From: Hyphobacterium sp. CCMP332
Lineage (GTDB): Bacteria; Bacteroidota; Bacteroidia; Cytophagales; CCMP332
DNA: 64,000 bases
Assembly: GCA_014323545.1 (NCBI GenBank)
Contig: CP058647.1
Span: 310,001-374,000 of the forward strand
Direction: 5' to 3'
Program-made: the position numbers and the translations under genes
Notes under the pieces: generated by a model
Databases searched by the model: none
The model's input: only the letters and a program-made list of their open reading frames with translations
What the model was told of the DNA's origin: nothing
Shown here: positions 12,167 through 28,981 of the stretch, one piece after another
How the letters are laid out: each line of letters begins with the position of its first letter
How positions within the stretch are numbered: the stretch's first letter is position 1

Positions 12167-12502
12167 ATGAAGAACTTAATACTTATCATTTCGATCTTTT
12201 TGCTAATTAGTCAGTCTTTATTCGCCCAAAAAGTTTACTCAGTTCAATATTCCAATCAAGCTGATCTTAAGGTTTATGTGGTTAAATATGAAAATCAGGC
12301 TGATTTAAAGGTCTACAAGGTTAAGTACTCCAATCAGGCCGATGAACATGGGCTTTGGTTTTTTACAGATTATGAAAACCAGGCGGATAAGACCATTTAC
12401 TTTGTAGATTATGAAAACCAGGCCGACCTGAAAATCTATTTTGTGGATTATGAAAATCAAGCCGGCTGGCGCAACCGCTCTTTAATACATTTACTTTACT
12501 GA
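12167..12502 (+). CDS. DUF6150-type secreted protein with YxNQAD repeats
   Basis: After a signal peptide (residues 1-20, ending LFAQK) the 111-residue protein consists of six tandem copies of a roughly 14-residue repeat with the core Y-S/E-NQAD, alternating with V/F-Y-x-V strands (for example LKVYVVKYENQAD). This matches DUF6150. I choose ATG 12167; an in-frame TTG lies three codons upstream. Function is unknown; the periodicity suggests a stacked beta structure on the cell surface or in the periplasm. The C-terminus runs into the convergent DUF2807 gene by about 12 bases. Confidence 0.75.
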   Translation: MKNLILIISIFLLISQSLFAQKVYSVQYSNQADLKVYVVKYENQADLKVYKVKYSNQADEHGLWFFTDYENQADKTIYFVDYENQADLKIYFVDYENQAGWRNRSLIHLLY

Positions 12503-26037: not shown

Positions 26038-27195
26038 GTGAAAATAAATCAAAATAAATATCAGTTTATCATAGCGGGAGCCGGCTTGGGTGGTTTGAGT
26101 TTTATCCATCATTTGCTGAGAACCAGCAATTTCAATGGTAAAATTCTCATTCTTGATTCTGACTTAAAAAGACAAAACGACAGAACCTGGAGTTTCTGGT
26201 CGACAAATAAGCCCGAATATCATAGTGTCGGTGAAAAATCATGGCATCAACTCGGTTTTGCCACTGATGATTATATACGTTTTGATACAATTGAGCCTTA
26301 CCGATATTACAGTATTAAAGGCCTTGATTTTTATAATGAAGTCTTTTCTGAAATCAGTCAAAATCCCGGAATAGAATTTAAACGCGAAACAATTTGCATG
26401 GTCGATCGAGAAGTTGATCAATGTATTGTAAAAACCGAAAATGAAACCTATTACTCAGAATACCTTATAGATAGCATTAGCAGACCTCAAATTCCAAAAA
26501 GTAAATACTTTTTAAACTTTCAACATTTTACAGGTTGGTTTATCGAAAGTGAAACCGAAGCATTCGACCCTTCAAAACCAATTTTAATGGATTTCAGAGT
26601 TAAGCAAGAAGGTGCCGCCGGTTTTATTTACTTATTGCCTTTTTCAAAAACAAAAGCCCTGGTTGAATACACACAGTTTAGTCCTCATAAAAATTATTCA
26701 GAAAAAAAATTCAGAAACGAATTGCAGAATTACATCAGCATTGTATTAGCAATTAAGAATTATAAAATTGAACAGGAAGAAATTGGCAGTATTCCCATGT
26801 CAGATTTTCCATTTGACCCCAAACCTGATTCGAGAATATACAGGTTGGGAACTTCTGGAGGAGACACCAAAGGTTCAACCGGCTACACCTTTAACTTTGT
26901 GCAAGAGCACGTCAAGGGAATATTAAAGGAATTATCAGGTCTGGGTTCATTTAGAAGGGACAATTTAAGACACAAATTTTATGATAAATTATTATTAAAA
27001 ATTATCAGTGAGGAACCGGAAAAAGTCAAGGAAATTATGTCTTCACTTTTTAAAGACCAACCAATGAATCGAATCCTGAAATTTCTTGATGAAGACACCA
27101 ATTTGCTTGAGGAAGGGCTGATATTCAGGAAATTACCCTGGCATCCATTTATAAAGGCTCTATTATTTAATAAAAATAATGCGATTTCTATATAA
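26038..27195 (+). CDS. crtY: lycopene beta-cyclase (CrtY family)
   Basis: GTG at 26038 is taken as start (MKINQ), five residues before the FAD/NAD-binding motif FIIAGAGLGGLSFIHHL. The next conserved block NDRTWSFWS and the later GTSGGDTKGSTGYTF (where the CrtY family has a GGxxxxxTGYxF element) identify the lycopene cyclase family. The 385-residue length is normal. The enzyme closes both ends of lycopene to beta-carotene. It overlaps the Blh-type gene by 17 bases, so the two proteins are made together, giving beta-carotene and then its cleavage product retinal. Confidence 0.88.
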   Translation: MKINQNKYQFIIAGAGLGGLSFIHHLLRTSNFNGKILILDSDLKRQNDRTWSFWSTNKPEYHSVGEKSWHQLGFATDDYIRFDTIEPYRYYSIKGLDFYNEVFSEISQNPGIEFKRETICMVDREVDQCIVKTENETYYSEYLIDSISRPQIPKSKYFLNFQHFTGWFIESETEAFDPSKPILMDFRVKQEGAAGFIYLLPFSKTKALVEYTQFSPHKNYSEKKFRNELQNYISIVLAIKNYKIEQEEIGSIPMSDFPFDPKPDSRIYRLGTSGGDTKGSTGYTFNFVQEHVKGILKELSGLGSFRRDNLRHKFYDKLLLKIISEEPEKVKEIMSSLFKDQPMNRILKFLDEDTNLLEEGLIFRKLPWHPFIKALLFNKNNAISI

Positions 27196-28057
27196 AATTA
27201 TTGTACTTTTTCTGGGAATCATTATCTACCGCATTTTCCCTGAATTCGACTTATACCTTGCCTTTGCCCTCATATTCATTTTTGGCATACCACATGGAGC
27301 CACAGATCATATTTTGCATAATCTGATCGACGAAAATAAGATGAACCCTAAACCCAAACCCACATTTCTAATGTACTATTTGGGGATAATATTATCATAT
27401 GCCGTTTTATGGTATTTTTTTCCCGGCTTCTCGCTATTTGTCTTTATTGTAATATCAGCTTTTCACTTTGGAGAGACCCAACTGCACCGGTTAGAGAGTA
27501 ATAATTGGATTAAAATCTTAAATTATATTTTCTGGGGCTCAAGTCTGTTGCTTCTCATTTTTGAACCTCACTTATCAGAAGTTCAAACCATAATTTCCCC
27601 GCACCTACTTGATGTCGGGAGCATGAATTGGGTTATTTCAAATTATTATTATTTGCTTTACGGATTTCTTATTGGAAGTTTTGTTTTTCTAATAAGTGAA
27701 GGTATAAAAACCCTTTTGGTGCAATTAACAGAGCTAATAATACTTTACCTAATTGCTAATTTCACTTCCCTGATATTGGCTTTTGCCCTGTTTTTTGCCT
27801 TTTGGCATAGTCGTGATGCCACTTATGATCAAATCACAAAAATTCGGAAATATGCAATTAATTTCAACTTTAAAGAATGGTTGAAACTAGCTTCCCCATA
27901 CTCTCTCATTAGTATTCTTGGTATTGTCTTGATAATCGTATTTTCTCTTTACATAGATTTAAAAATACCAACAATTACTTTGTTTTTCGTTTTAGTAGCA
28001 CTGATTACTTTACCGCATGTTTTTGTAATGTCTGTTTTTTACAGAAAAACAAAGTAA
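27179..28057 (+). CDS. blh: Brp/Blh family beta-carotene 15,15'-dioxygenase
   Basis: The 292-residue integral membrane protein has about eight hydrophobic segments and the family's histidine signatures: GIPHGATDH near residue 36, AFHFGETQLHR near 93, FALFFAFWHSRDATYDQ near 205, and LPHVFVMSVFYR at the C-terminus. Blh enzymes cleave beta-carotene centrally into two retinal molecules, the chromophore of microbial rhodopsins. The 17-base overlap with crtY confirms a dedicated retinal unit. No rhodopsin gene is visible within the window, so the opsin must be elsewhere or absent. Confidence 0.88.
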   Translation: MRFLYKIIVLFLGIIIYRIFPEFDLYLAFALIFIFGIPHGATDHILHNLIDENKMNPKPKPTFLMYYLGIILSYAVLWYFFPGFSLFVFIVISAFHFGETQLHRLESNNWIKILNYIFWGSSLLLLIFEPHLSEVQTIISPHLLDVGSMNWVISNYYYLLYGFLIGSFVFLISEGIKTLLVQLTELIILYLIANFTSLILAFALFFAFWHSRDATYDQITKIRKYAINFNFKEWLKLASPYSLISILGIVLIIVFSLYIDLKIPTITLFFVLVALITLPHVFVMSVFYRKTK

Positions 28058-28300
28058 TCTAAAATCATTTTTATCTGAATTTACCAGTAAATAAATAAGC
28101 CTTTGATGTTTGGTCAAATGCTTGGTTCTCTTGACAGGGTGCCGTGATGGACTTACTTCGATCCCGAGGCTCTTGAAAATTCCGAAAGCCAAGCCTGAAC
28201 TCAATTATATTTTGAAAATGATTTGATTGAAACTAAGTCAGGCTTGCCCGACGGAGCTCGCAGCTAAGTGAAAATTAATTCTTTTAACAGTTAATTTAAA
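28058..28300. other. intergenic region with an inverted repeat between blh and tRNA-Pro
   Basis: No gene is seen. CAAGCCTGA at 28190-28198 and TCAGGCTTG at 28238-28246 form a nine-base inverted repeat with a 39-base AT-rich loop, which could act as a terminator or processing signal for the convergent transcription units. Confidence 0.4.
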
Positions 28301-28337
28301 AAATATGCCCGCCTTCGCTCTTCGAGCTTCGGCGGGC
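28295..28337 (-). terminator. Rho-independent terminator downstream of tRNA-Pro
   Basis: On the minus strand GCCCGCC (complement of 28331-28337) pairs with GGCGGGC (complement of 28307-28313) across a loop containing a further CTCGAAGAG hairpin, followed by ATATTTTTT. This is in the right place and orientation to end the tRNA-Pro transcript. Confidence 0.75.
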
Positions 28338-28341
28338 GTAG

Positions 28342-28416
28342 TCGGGATGCCGGGATTTGAACCCGGGGCCCCACGCCCCCCAGACGTGTACTCTAACCGG
28401 ACTGAGCTACATCCCG
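28342..28416 (-). tRNA. tRNA-Pro (anticodon GGG)
   Basis: The minus strand gives a complete cloverleaf: acceptor CGGGATG paired with CATCCCG plus discriminator A, a D-arm with AGCTC...GGTTAGAGT, an anticodon stem CACGT/GCGTG around loop CTGGGGG (anticodon GGG), a short variable region, and a T-arm CCGGG-TTCAAAT-CCCGG. CCA is not encoded. The first 12 bases (28405-28416) are repeated in each of the five tandem units immediately upstream of the gene. Confidence 0.95.
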
Positions 28417-28915
28417 CAGTACAAAATGCACTTCTTTCACTCTTTAACCGGATGTAGCGAAGTGCTTGTCCCGAAGTGAAGCGCTAAGCGATTCTACTTA
28501 GGAAGCTACATCCCGCAGTACAAAATGCACTTCTTTCACTCTTTAACCGGATGTAGCGAAGTGCTTGTCCCGAAGTGAAGCGCTAAGCGATTCTACTTAG
28601 GGAAGCTACATCCCGCAGTACAAAATGCACTTCTTTCACTCTTTAACCGGATGTAGCGAAGTGCTTGTCCCGAAGTGAAGCGCTAAGCGATTCTACTTAG
28701 GGAAGCTACATCCCGCAGTACAAATTGCACTTCTTTCACTCTTTAACTGGATGTAGCGAAGTGCTTGTCCCGAAGTGAAGCGCTAAGCGATTCTACTTAG
28801 GGAAGCTACATCCCGCAGTACAAATTGCACTTCTTTCACTCTTTAACCGGATGTAGCGAAGTGCTTGTCCCGAAGTGAAGCGCTAAGCGATTCTACTTAG
28901 GGAAGCTACATCCCG
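28417..28915. repeat. five 100-bp tandem repeats carrying copies of the tRNA-Pro 5' end
   Basis: Units are 28417-28515 (99 bp), 28516-28615, 28616-28715, 28716-28815 and 28816-28915 (100 bp each). They are nearly identical: unit 1 lacks one G, units 4-5 have AAATTGC for AAAATGC, and unit 4 has one C-to-T change. Each ends on the plus strand with AGCTACATCCCG, the first 12 bases of the tRNA in complement, and contains CTCTTTAACCGG, similar to the tRNA D-arm. Each has a nine-base inverted repeat GGATGTAGC/GCTACATCC enclosing a stem AGTGCTT/AAGCGCT, so each transcript copy should fold. The array lies between a likely promoter and the tRNA. Confidence 0.9.
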
Positions 28916-28925
28916 ATTTCTTTTG

Positions 28926-28972
28926 GCCTTCCCGGAAGTGTGATCCTGAAAGGAATTCAACTTTCGGGGAGG
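28926..28972. other. leader stem-loop upstream of the tRNA repeat array
   Basis: CCTTCCCGGAAGT pairs with ACTTTCGGGGAGG across about 20 bases, a 13-pair stem with a few G-U pairs. It lies between the probable -7 element and the first repeat copy on the minus strand, and so would be the 5' leader of the tRNA transcript. Confidence 0.45.
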
Positions 28973-28973
28973 G

Positions 28974-28981
28974 CAAAAATA
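28974..28981 (-). promoter_or_regulatory. probable -7 element for the repeat array and tRNA-Pro
   Basis: The minus strand reads TATTTTTG, matching the Bacteroidota TAnnTTTG consensus. A TTTC one mismatch from the -33 TTTG lies 19 bases upstream. Transcription from here would run through the leader stem-loop, all five repeats and the tRNA. Confidence 0.45.

Follow-up and report, generated by a model that had tools for sequence, protein, structure and literature searches.

Five tandem units before a tRNA-Pro gene as probable remnants of a GIY-YIG element that rebuilds its tRNA target

Upstream of a tRNA-Pro(GGG) gene in the 64,000-nucleotide stretch of DNA analysed here (the window) stand five tandem units, each of which begins with the 5' end of that tRNA. 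We propose that the array probably represents ORF-less remnants of an element that encodes a GIY-YIG nuclease and rebuilds the tRNA gene it enters, and that the remnants were amplified by unequal recombination. The anatomy of the units, its recurrence at other tRNA genes, the association with nuclease genes, the displacement of the promoter and the single unit in related genomes can all be read directly from the DNA.

RESULTS

Anatomy of the array

The array occupies positions 28417-28915 of the minus strand (499 bp in total) and consists of five units of 100, 100, 100, 100 and 99 bp, whose pairwise identity is 97-100%. Tandem Repeats Finder delimited the repeat to 28405-28915 (period 100, 5.1 copies, 99% matches, score 994), confirming the original prediction of five units of about 100 bp between a promoter and tRNA-Pro. 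The order on the minus strand is promoter motif, 58-base leader, five units, tRNA-Pro(GGG), inverted repeat and a run of T's. The promoter motif match TATTTTTG (28974-28981) has the form TAnnTTTG, which we take to be the Bacteroidota -7 promoter element. It lies 66 bp before unit 1 and is the sole such match between a point 150 bp before the array and tRNA-Pro; a sigma-70 scan listed no site at 28981-28974. The leader (28916-28973) is predicted to contain a hairpin. Repeat finding and identity comparison placed the promoter-proximal unit 1 at 28816-28915, unit 2 at 28716-28815, unit 3 at 28616-28715, unit 4 at 28516-28615 (100 bp each) and unit 5 at 28417-28515 (99 bp), with starts at 28915, 28815, 28715, 28615 and 28515. 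The intact tRNA-Pro(GGG) gene, called by ARAGORN and Rfam, starts at 28416 (28341-28416) and is followed at 28298-28337 by the inverted repeat GCCCGCC..GGCGGGC and a T-run, a likely terminator that was found by eye and was not listed by a scan with a loop limit of 8.

The exact first 12 bases of the tRNA had been predicted to open every unit, and this was found: the minus strand of the window has six occurrences of CGGGATGTAGCT, at the five unit starts and at the tRNA 5' end, and the plus strand has none. Sequence comparison located the copy in unit 5, identical in all units, at 28504-28515. After the 12 bases comes a hairpin-containing insert of about 51 bases, then a D-arm-like block and finally a tail of about 20 bases. 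The D-arm-like sequence CCGGTTAAAGAGT, also expected in each unit, is present in four of the five, with CCAGTT in its place in unit 2; in unit 5 it spans 28439-28451 and equals tRNA nt 17-27 plus 2 extra bases. The earlier description of a unit as the 12-mer plus a segment X was correct for the 12-mer, but the whole is a 5' tRNA fragment (nt 1-12 and the D-arm-like block) split by a hairpin.

ARAGORN and Rfam found one tRNA only in the array region, and the units matched neither tRNA nor another known RNA; over the whole window Rfam returned tRNA only and no group I intron, and tRNA-Pro is uninterrupted. No ORF longer than 50 amino acids overlaps the array, which can thus be at most an ORF-less derivative of a GIY-YIG homing element, and no trace of a nuclease was seen in the Pro units. 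On the plus strand beside the array (26038-28057) lie two overlapping ORFs that match lycopene cyclase (PF05834, E 7e-48) and beta-carotene 15,15'-dioxygenase (PF15461, E 1e-43), together a pair for retinal synthesis. At 12242-12464 the window has two imperfect tandem repeats of 39 bp that adjoin each other, possibly within a protein gene.

Tandem repeats being a classic source of error, the array could be an assembly artefact or a collapsed or expanded repeat. We regard this as scarcely credible: the genome is a single 3.33-Mb contig, the units carry distinct substitutions (only units 3 and 4 are identical), and a single-unit form is present in both relatives described below.

Single units before the same tRNA in related genomes

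The window's genome (G000) was compared with two relatives of the same family (G001 and G002). When G000 was searched with unit DNA, everything outside the array was a match of 14-17 bases with an E value of 1 or more. A dispersed repeat of the REP or MITE kind was ruled out on this ground, the genome containing the array and chance matches only. No match was obtained by blastn of the unit against 58 other genomes (E 0.01), or by a scan of genome contigs with the protein neighbouring the array. The pattern GGATGTAGCT..GCTNCATCC, sought in 194 genomes, occurred in G000 and G001 only; its closing strand differs in G002.

Reading the DNA upstream of tRNA-Pro(GGG) revealed one diverged unit each in G001 and G002, directly before the gene. 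These units have the identical 12-mer and another hairpin interior, and a complement of the 5' strand is again present. Because they retain the 12-mer but differ inside the hairpin, the absence of the unit by DNA similarity is misleading. Among 23 tRNA-Pro(ggg) loci, four have an upstream self-copy starting at nt 1, those of G000, G001, G002 and G049. In the last, which belongs to another family (locus L015), a copy of nt 1-14 stands before tRNA-Pro(ggg), with a hairpin and then a D-arm-like block after it. The idea that X might be met in other genomes was therefore borne out as structure and not as DNA similarity: homologues stand before tRNA-Pro(GGG) in the two family members and in a single genome from outside the family, whereas no similar DNA was found in the rest of the genome or in the 58 others.

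Repeated insertion and unequal crossing-over had both been put forward as the origin of the array. Given the single unit in each of G001 and G002 and the 97-100% identity of the array units, the evidence is stronger for unequal recombination than for five insertions.

Self-copies at other tRNA genes

The surroundings of tRNA genes were fetched from the three genomes, and ARAGORN called 94 such genes in the fetched DNA. Those with at least 200 bp upstream (91 of 94) were kept; the tRNA-Pro(tgg) row of L093, and L108 and L116 (22 and 72 bp upstream), were left out. A 5' self-copy was scored if at least 11 of the gene's own first 13 bases matched within 450 nt upstream. This was the case for 23 of the 91 genes (permuted mean 1.56, maximum 8 in 500 permutations) and, within 250 nt downstream, for none of the 91. 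With a stricter match of 12 out of 13, 22 genes retained a copy (permuted mean 0.55, maximum 3). All three genomes contributed (9/33, 7/35 and 7/23 genes).

For the 3' end (own last 14 nt, at least 12 matching), copies were detected within 250 nt downstream of 13 out of 90 genes (L047, L051, L074, L076, L079, L083, L084, L092, L102, L104, L106, L109 and L118), with a permuted mean of 0.31 and a maximum of 2 in 300 permutations, and within 250 nt upstream of 0/90. The original prediction had set the 5' end used here against the 3' end used by tRNA-targeted elements, a contrast that proved half right, since 3' copies also occur, downstream of tRNAs. Both kinds of copy were seen at some tRNAs (in G001 the Met of L074, Asp and Arg cct; in G002 Arg cct).

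The promoter motif was found no more than 60 nt from the tRNA in 41 of the 68 genes lacking a 5' copy, compared with 0 of the 23 that have one (Fisher p 5.7e-8). In 10 of these 23 the motif lies within 60 nt of the outermost copy; the corresponding distance in the window is 66. As the motif stands by the outermost copy, this copy seems to hold the old start of the gene, the intact tRNA having been displaced from its promoter.

In size, the 5' units of the three genomes fall into 56-167 bp (solo) and 291-423 bp (with an ORF). A second tRNA block of at least 8 exact bases is present in only 16 of 32 units. The same tRNA can be occupied differently in the three genomes: at tRNA-Asp G001 has an ORF-bearing unit, G002 two solo units and G000 none, and the tRNA-Met(cat) that begins with GGCGAGG has no unit in G000, one in G001 and three in G002. 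Near a tRNA-Ser/Arg/Pro cluster of G000 (L052, G000:C1:448765-450475, positions 2-256) we noted an imperfect repeat with a repeated peptide phrase in its ORFs.

GIY-YIG nuclease genes beside tRNAs

Three units, those at Arg(tct) and Ser(tga) of G000 and at Asp of G001, encode a small GIY-YIG protein (PF01541, E 1.1e-16, 2.7e-15 and 3.7e-19). The suggestion that a tiny element might exploit a tRNA 5' end and leave the tRNA rebuilt is thereby supported in part: the anatomy recurs at many tRNAs, sometimes with a GIY-YIG ORF inside.

Relatives of the nuclease were sought by protein comparison in bacterial and archaeal genomes. Of the 86 loci obtained, the best 80, from many phyla, were analysed. 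Since the queries were themselves linked to tRNAs, these best 80 of 86 represent the tRNA-linked subfamily; near-duplicates are included (L140/L147, L167/L169), and one locus, L158, probably comes from G001, to whose protein it has a branch of zero length. In this sample 63 loci have a tRNA within 600 bp, the tRNAs near the nuclease are on the same strand in 86 cases and on the opposite strand in 1, and tRNA density is 0.96 per kb near the nuclease versus 0.05 per kb further out. Of the 62 same-strand loci in this set (best 80 of 86), 42 carry part of the adjacent tRNA on the far side of the ORF at a score of at least 14 (permuted mean 1.6, maximum 6 in 300 permutations), and the remaining 20 have none at score 14. 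The pieces differ with the position of the tRNA. If the tRNA follows the ORF (29 loci), all 22 best pieces lie inside nt 1-50; if it precedes the ORF (33 loci), 18 of the 20 best pieces are in or reach the 3' half, L151 and L167 having 5' pieces. UvrC, which shares the domain, served as control: 0/13 loci had a tRNA within 1.5 kb on either side.

Proximity to tRNAs is not a property of all small GIY-YIG genes. A tRNA or tmRNA lies within 1.2 kb on either side of 4 out of 7 such genes in G000 and 3 out of 8 in G001, and of none of the rest; 8 of 17 small GIY-YIG loci have a tRNA, and in an overlapping set of 20 stretches from other genomes a tRNA is present in 9 and absent from 11. No 3' copy was found at the G000 nuclease genes located 3' of tRNA-Asn and tRNA-Met, and the four nuclease relatives on viral contigs had no tRNA in the fetched stretch. 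Locus L267 of G001 (G001:C65:36060-38663, positions 701-1062 and about 1200-1400) has a tmRNA gene with a GIY-YIG ORF some 140 bp downstream of it on the same strand. This location suggests that tmRNA may also serve the element class; no clear 3' copy of tmRNA was found there.

The possibility that elements of the 5' and 3' types form two nuclease lineages was considered and dropped. Loci were labelled by their nearest tRNA (L126 is labelled 3', yet has 5' copies), and the tree, with 31 of 78 inner branches well supported, required 15 and 20 changes of label, where shuffling gave means of 25.5 and 25.4. The tree mixes both polarities, from which it appears that polarity is not tied to nuclease lineage.

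These data bear on an origin without any nuclease, in which slippage or recombination errors would duplicate tRNA ends, hairpins would grow, unequal crossing-over would produce arrays, and the GIY-YIG genes would be opportunistic passengers. Such an origin would agree with the lack of an ORF in 29 of the 32 5' units of the three genomes and of any ORF trace in the Pro unit, with the many small GIY-YIG genes that lie away from tRNAs, and with the fact that unequal crossing-over between 12-base repeats suffices to make an array. It leaves other observations unaccounted for. ORF-bearing and ORF-less units have anatomy, polarity and side in common, 5' copies occur solely upstream and 3' copies solely downstream of the tRNA, and copy-bearing tRNAs are separated from their promoters; across phyla, moreover, the nuclease gene sits between partial copy and intact tRNA (the 42/62 loci above) with the strand bias of 86 to 1 in the best 80 of 86 loci. 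We consider the nuclease-free origin unlikely and continue with remnants of a nuclease element as the preferred reading.

Palindromes in the copied pieces

At nuclease loci a palindrome interrupts many of the partial tRNA copies; its sequence is frequently CCTGCCTGCCGGCAGGCAGG or a variant of it. Split copies were present at 24 loci. The break falls where the D-loop ends (nt 21/22) in 8 of these, within the T-loop (18 nt from the 3' end) in 6, and elsewhere in the others; in the 14 D-loop or T-loop splits no tRNA bases were lost. As only these 14 of 24 loci have the palindrome at one of the two sites, the site is perhaps not a defining feature. The T-loop site agrees with GTTCSAWTY, the reverse complement of the SegB motif, which fits the T-arm. 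We infer that the palindrome may mark the place where the nuclease cuts. The window units have their hairpin after nt 12, unlike the 21/22 site of many ORF-bearing elements, and the hairpin itself differs from CCTGCCTGCCGGCAGGCAGG.

With up to one mismatch, CCTGCCTGCCGGCAGGCAGG occurs at three places in G000, all of them beside tRNAs. In genome G020 the same palindrome and its variants were found at 16 sites (L233-L248), and the 1.6 kb fetched for each contained no tRNA; this suggests that the palindrome is mobile, or at least dispersed, by itself. Several of the G020 sites are nested in another inverted repeat, GATTGCTTCG..CTCGCAATGAC, giving palindromes within palindromes. That CCTGCCTGCCGGCAGGCAGG is specific to tRNAs was dropped as an assumption, only 2 of 24 sites from other genomes having a tRNA in 1.6 kb.

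One could suppose from the palindromes in the D- or T-loops of the copies, and from the G020 sites away from tRNAs and inside other inverted repeats, that a REP- or MITE-like palindrome family targets hairpin loops in general, the tRNA copies being mere targets and the nuclease irrelevant. This is highly improbable in our judgement, because the intact tRNA beside each broken copy would be left unexplained, the G000 sites are all next to tRNAs and the hairpin of the Pro units is not this palindrome.

Other tandem arrays

Arrays are not confined to tRNA-Pro. In G035 (L273, G035:C2:233200-236500) a tRNA-Leu(taa) gene is followed by three units of 345 bp, identical at 331-342 of 345 positions, each composed of a GIY-YIG ORF and a palindrome-split 3' tRNA copy. 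In G002 (L270, G002:C101:839-3943) two tandem nuclease units of the 3' type follow tRNA-Thr(tgt), and their copies carry the palindrome TCCCGAT..ATCGGGA in the T-loop. G002 also has ORF-less arrays: one of three 128-bp units at tRNA-Met, identical at 121-123 of 128 positions, and one at tRNA-Leu(tag), whose three units diverge more. Next to the ORF-bearing 3' arrays at tRNA-Leu and tRNA-Thr and the ORF-less arrays of G002, the array of the window appears as an ORF-less 5' counterpart. High identity within arrays, together with the single units in relatives, favours unequal recombination of a resident unit over five insertions.

Predicted RNA folding of the units

The original prediction that a unit folds through GGATGTAGC/GCTACATCC was reproduced by folding of units 5 and 2. 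This stem is predicted to pair the copied 5' strand within each unit; in unit 5 the strand GCTACATCC (28450-28458) complements the copied tRNA 5' strand and would close the unit hairpin. For unit 5 alone the predicted energy is -31.5 kcal/mol (z -2.2). Pairing of the first 12 nt of unit 2 with the rest of the unit scored -16.6 against a shuffled mean of -9.3, and none of 200 shuffles was as good. The orphan 5' strand is predicted to be closed by pairing at p<=0.02 in 7 of 23 units, the window unit among them, and with this count closing of the hairpin was dropped as a general unit property.

In the minimum-energy fold of the full transcript (z -12.8, 20 shuffles) the outermost unit is predicted to pair with the tRNA 3' end, replacing the tRNA's own 5' strand. 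Judged from this pairing, interference with tRNA-Pro is possible, and the modelled fold speaks against harmless insulation of the orphan strand. Closing of the orphan strand within a unit may, by the same kind of modelling, be a remedy for interference with the true tRNA.

These folds are relevant to the possibility that the array is a regulated leader RNA, five structured units being kept to control the output of tRNA-Pro(GGG) through competing 5' strands, processing or decoys. Consistent with this are the position of the units between promoter motif and tRNA, the closed pairing in 7/23 units, the full-length fold, and the invariance of the 12-mer over 7 aligned units from the three genomes while the hairpin interior diverged. 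The last observation has another possible explanation, since gene conversion with the tRNA could preserve the 12-mer; Rfam matches the tRNA only, the number of units varies (5, 1 and 1), and 68 of 91 tRNAs have no such unit. Taken together, a regulated leader is distinctly improbable as the reason for the array, and remnants of a tRNA-rebuilding nuclease element remain our preferred reading.

DISCUSSION

Proposed origin of the array

In the sequence of events that we infer, which comprises nuclease cutting, order of insertion, loss of the ORF, route of amplification, transcription and processing, each unit would be the leftover 5' part of tRNA-Pro(GGG), its D-arm interrupted by a hairpin. The complete 5' form would consist of a tRNA 5' part (often with a D-loop palindrome), the GIY-YIG ORF and the intact tRNA, and the mirror form of the intact tRNA, the GIY-YIG ORF and a tRNA 3' part (often with a T-loop palindrome). 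The nuclease is envisaged to cut the tRNA gene in its D- or T-loop. Repair of the break would insert the ORF together with a fresh tRNA end, so that the gene is rebuilt and the old end remains as a promoter-proximal (or terminator-proximal) fragment. Loss of the ORF would then leave solo units of 56-167 bp, and the repeated tRNA 5' end would permit unequal recombination, possibly triggered by nuclease cutting, by which one unit could become five. The array would presumably be transcribed as a leader and taken off by the RNase P cut at the tRNA 5' end. In some units, those of tRNA-Pro included, the complement at the unit end could pair with the orphan 5' strand and perhaps prevent its competition with the true tRNA.

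A wider generalization is possible, although on balance we doubt it in its full extent. The elements may be a phylum-spanning class of minimal homing elements, made up of a GIY-YIG nuclease of about 80-100 residues and a tRNA replacement piece, with 5' and 3' forms, palindrome-capped stumps, ORF-less satellites amplified at tRNA genes by the nuclease acting in trans, and repeated transcribed leaders that alter tRNA maturation, a selfish element having thus turned into an architecture of tRNA dosage. If true, essential tRNA genes in many bacterial phyla would be a regular homing ground for tiny nuclease elements, and many orphan GIY-YIG genes, with the odd partial tRNA copies adjoining them, would be explained. 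An element that restores its target with a replacement end of its own would have a way to be harmless without an intron, and the arrays would be a chromosomal parallel to the amplification driven by SegB in phages. The class has known cousins in SegB and the mitochondrial mobile ORFs; among the titles and abstract starts returned by searches of open-licence PMC papers we found none on partial tRNA copies flanking bacterial GIY-YIG genes, and no description of a bacterial, tRNA-restoring form that works at either end.

Comparison with known systems

Integrative elements with a tyrosine recombinase insert at a tRNA gene and restore the tRNA by a copy of one end. Restoration by a one-end copy is common to them and to the units described here; the latter differ in being 56-167 bp, or 291-423 bp with an ORF, and in using 5' as well as 3' parts. 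No integrase was seen at the array (499 bp, no ORF longer than 50 amino acids; neighbouring ORFs scanned in part), and the repeat is the tRNA 5' end, not a 3' att site. REP/REPIN and other bacterial palindromic repeats are likewise short palindromes in intergenic DNA, but each unit here holds part of the tRNA that it precedes, and the window unit occurs at one locus only.

Mobile ORFs have been described in fungal mitochondria, in atp6 of Allomyces and in atp6, atp9, cox2 and nad3 of Glomus (PMC3630166). As far as the available part of that source goes, they resemble the elements proposed here in that an endonuclease ORF enters an essential gene and brings a replacement end, the old end being left behind in some, and the nuclease is of the GIY-YIG type in the atp9 case (PMC3630166). 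They differ, within the same portion of the source, in having protein genes as targets, in the use of 3' ends, in having neither a tRNA nor a D/T-loop palindrome, and in the LAGLIDADG nuclease of the other three Glomus genes (PMC3630166).

The closest known relative is SegB of phages T4 and T6, which the accessible part of its survey describes as a free-standing GIY-YIG homing endonuclease of the tRNA region that cuts inside tRNA genes at the motif RAWTSGAAC (PMC13096335). SegB and the elements of this work share a GIY-YIG nuclease, a position adjoining tRNA genes and the lack of an intron, and the reverse complement of the SegB motif fits the T-arm, where the 3'-type palindromes are seated. 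There are also clear differences. The SegB survey, in that accessible part, concerns phages (PMC13096335), whereas the elements here are chromosomal and come from many bacterial phyla. Here the ORF is flanked by a partial tRNA copy, by which the host tRNA would be rebuilt; the same part of the SegB account gives no flanking tRNA pieces beyond microhomology. The D- or T-loop palindrome in the copy, the ORF-less solo units and the arrays likewise set the present elements apart from SegB as there described. For the amplification itself SegB provides, in what is accessible of that account, the precedent that a GIY-YIG nuclease can drive tandem amplification (PMC13096335).
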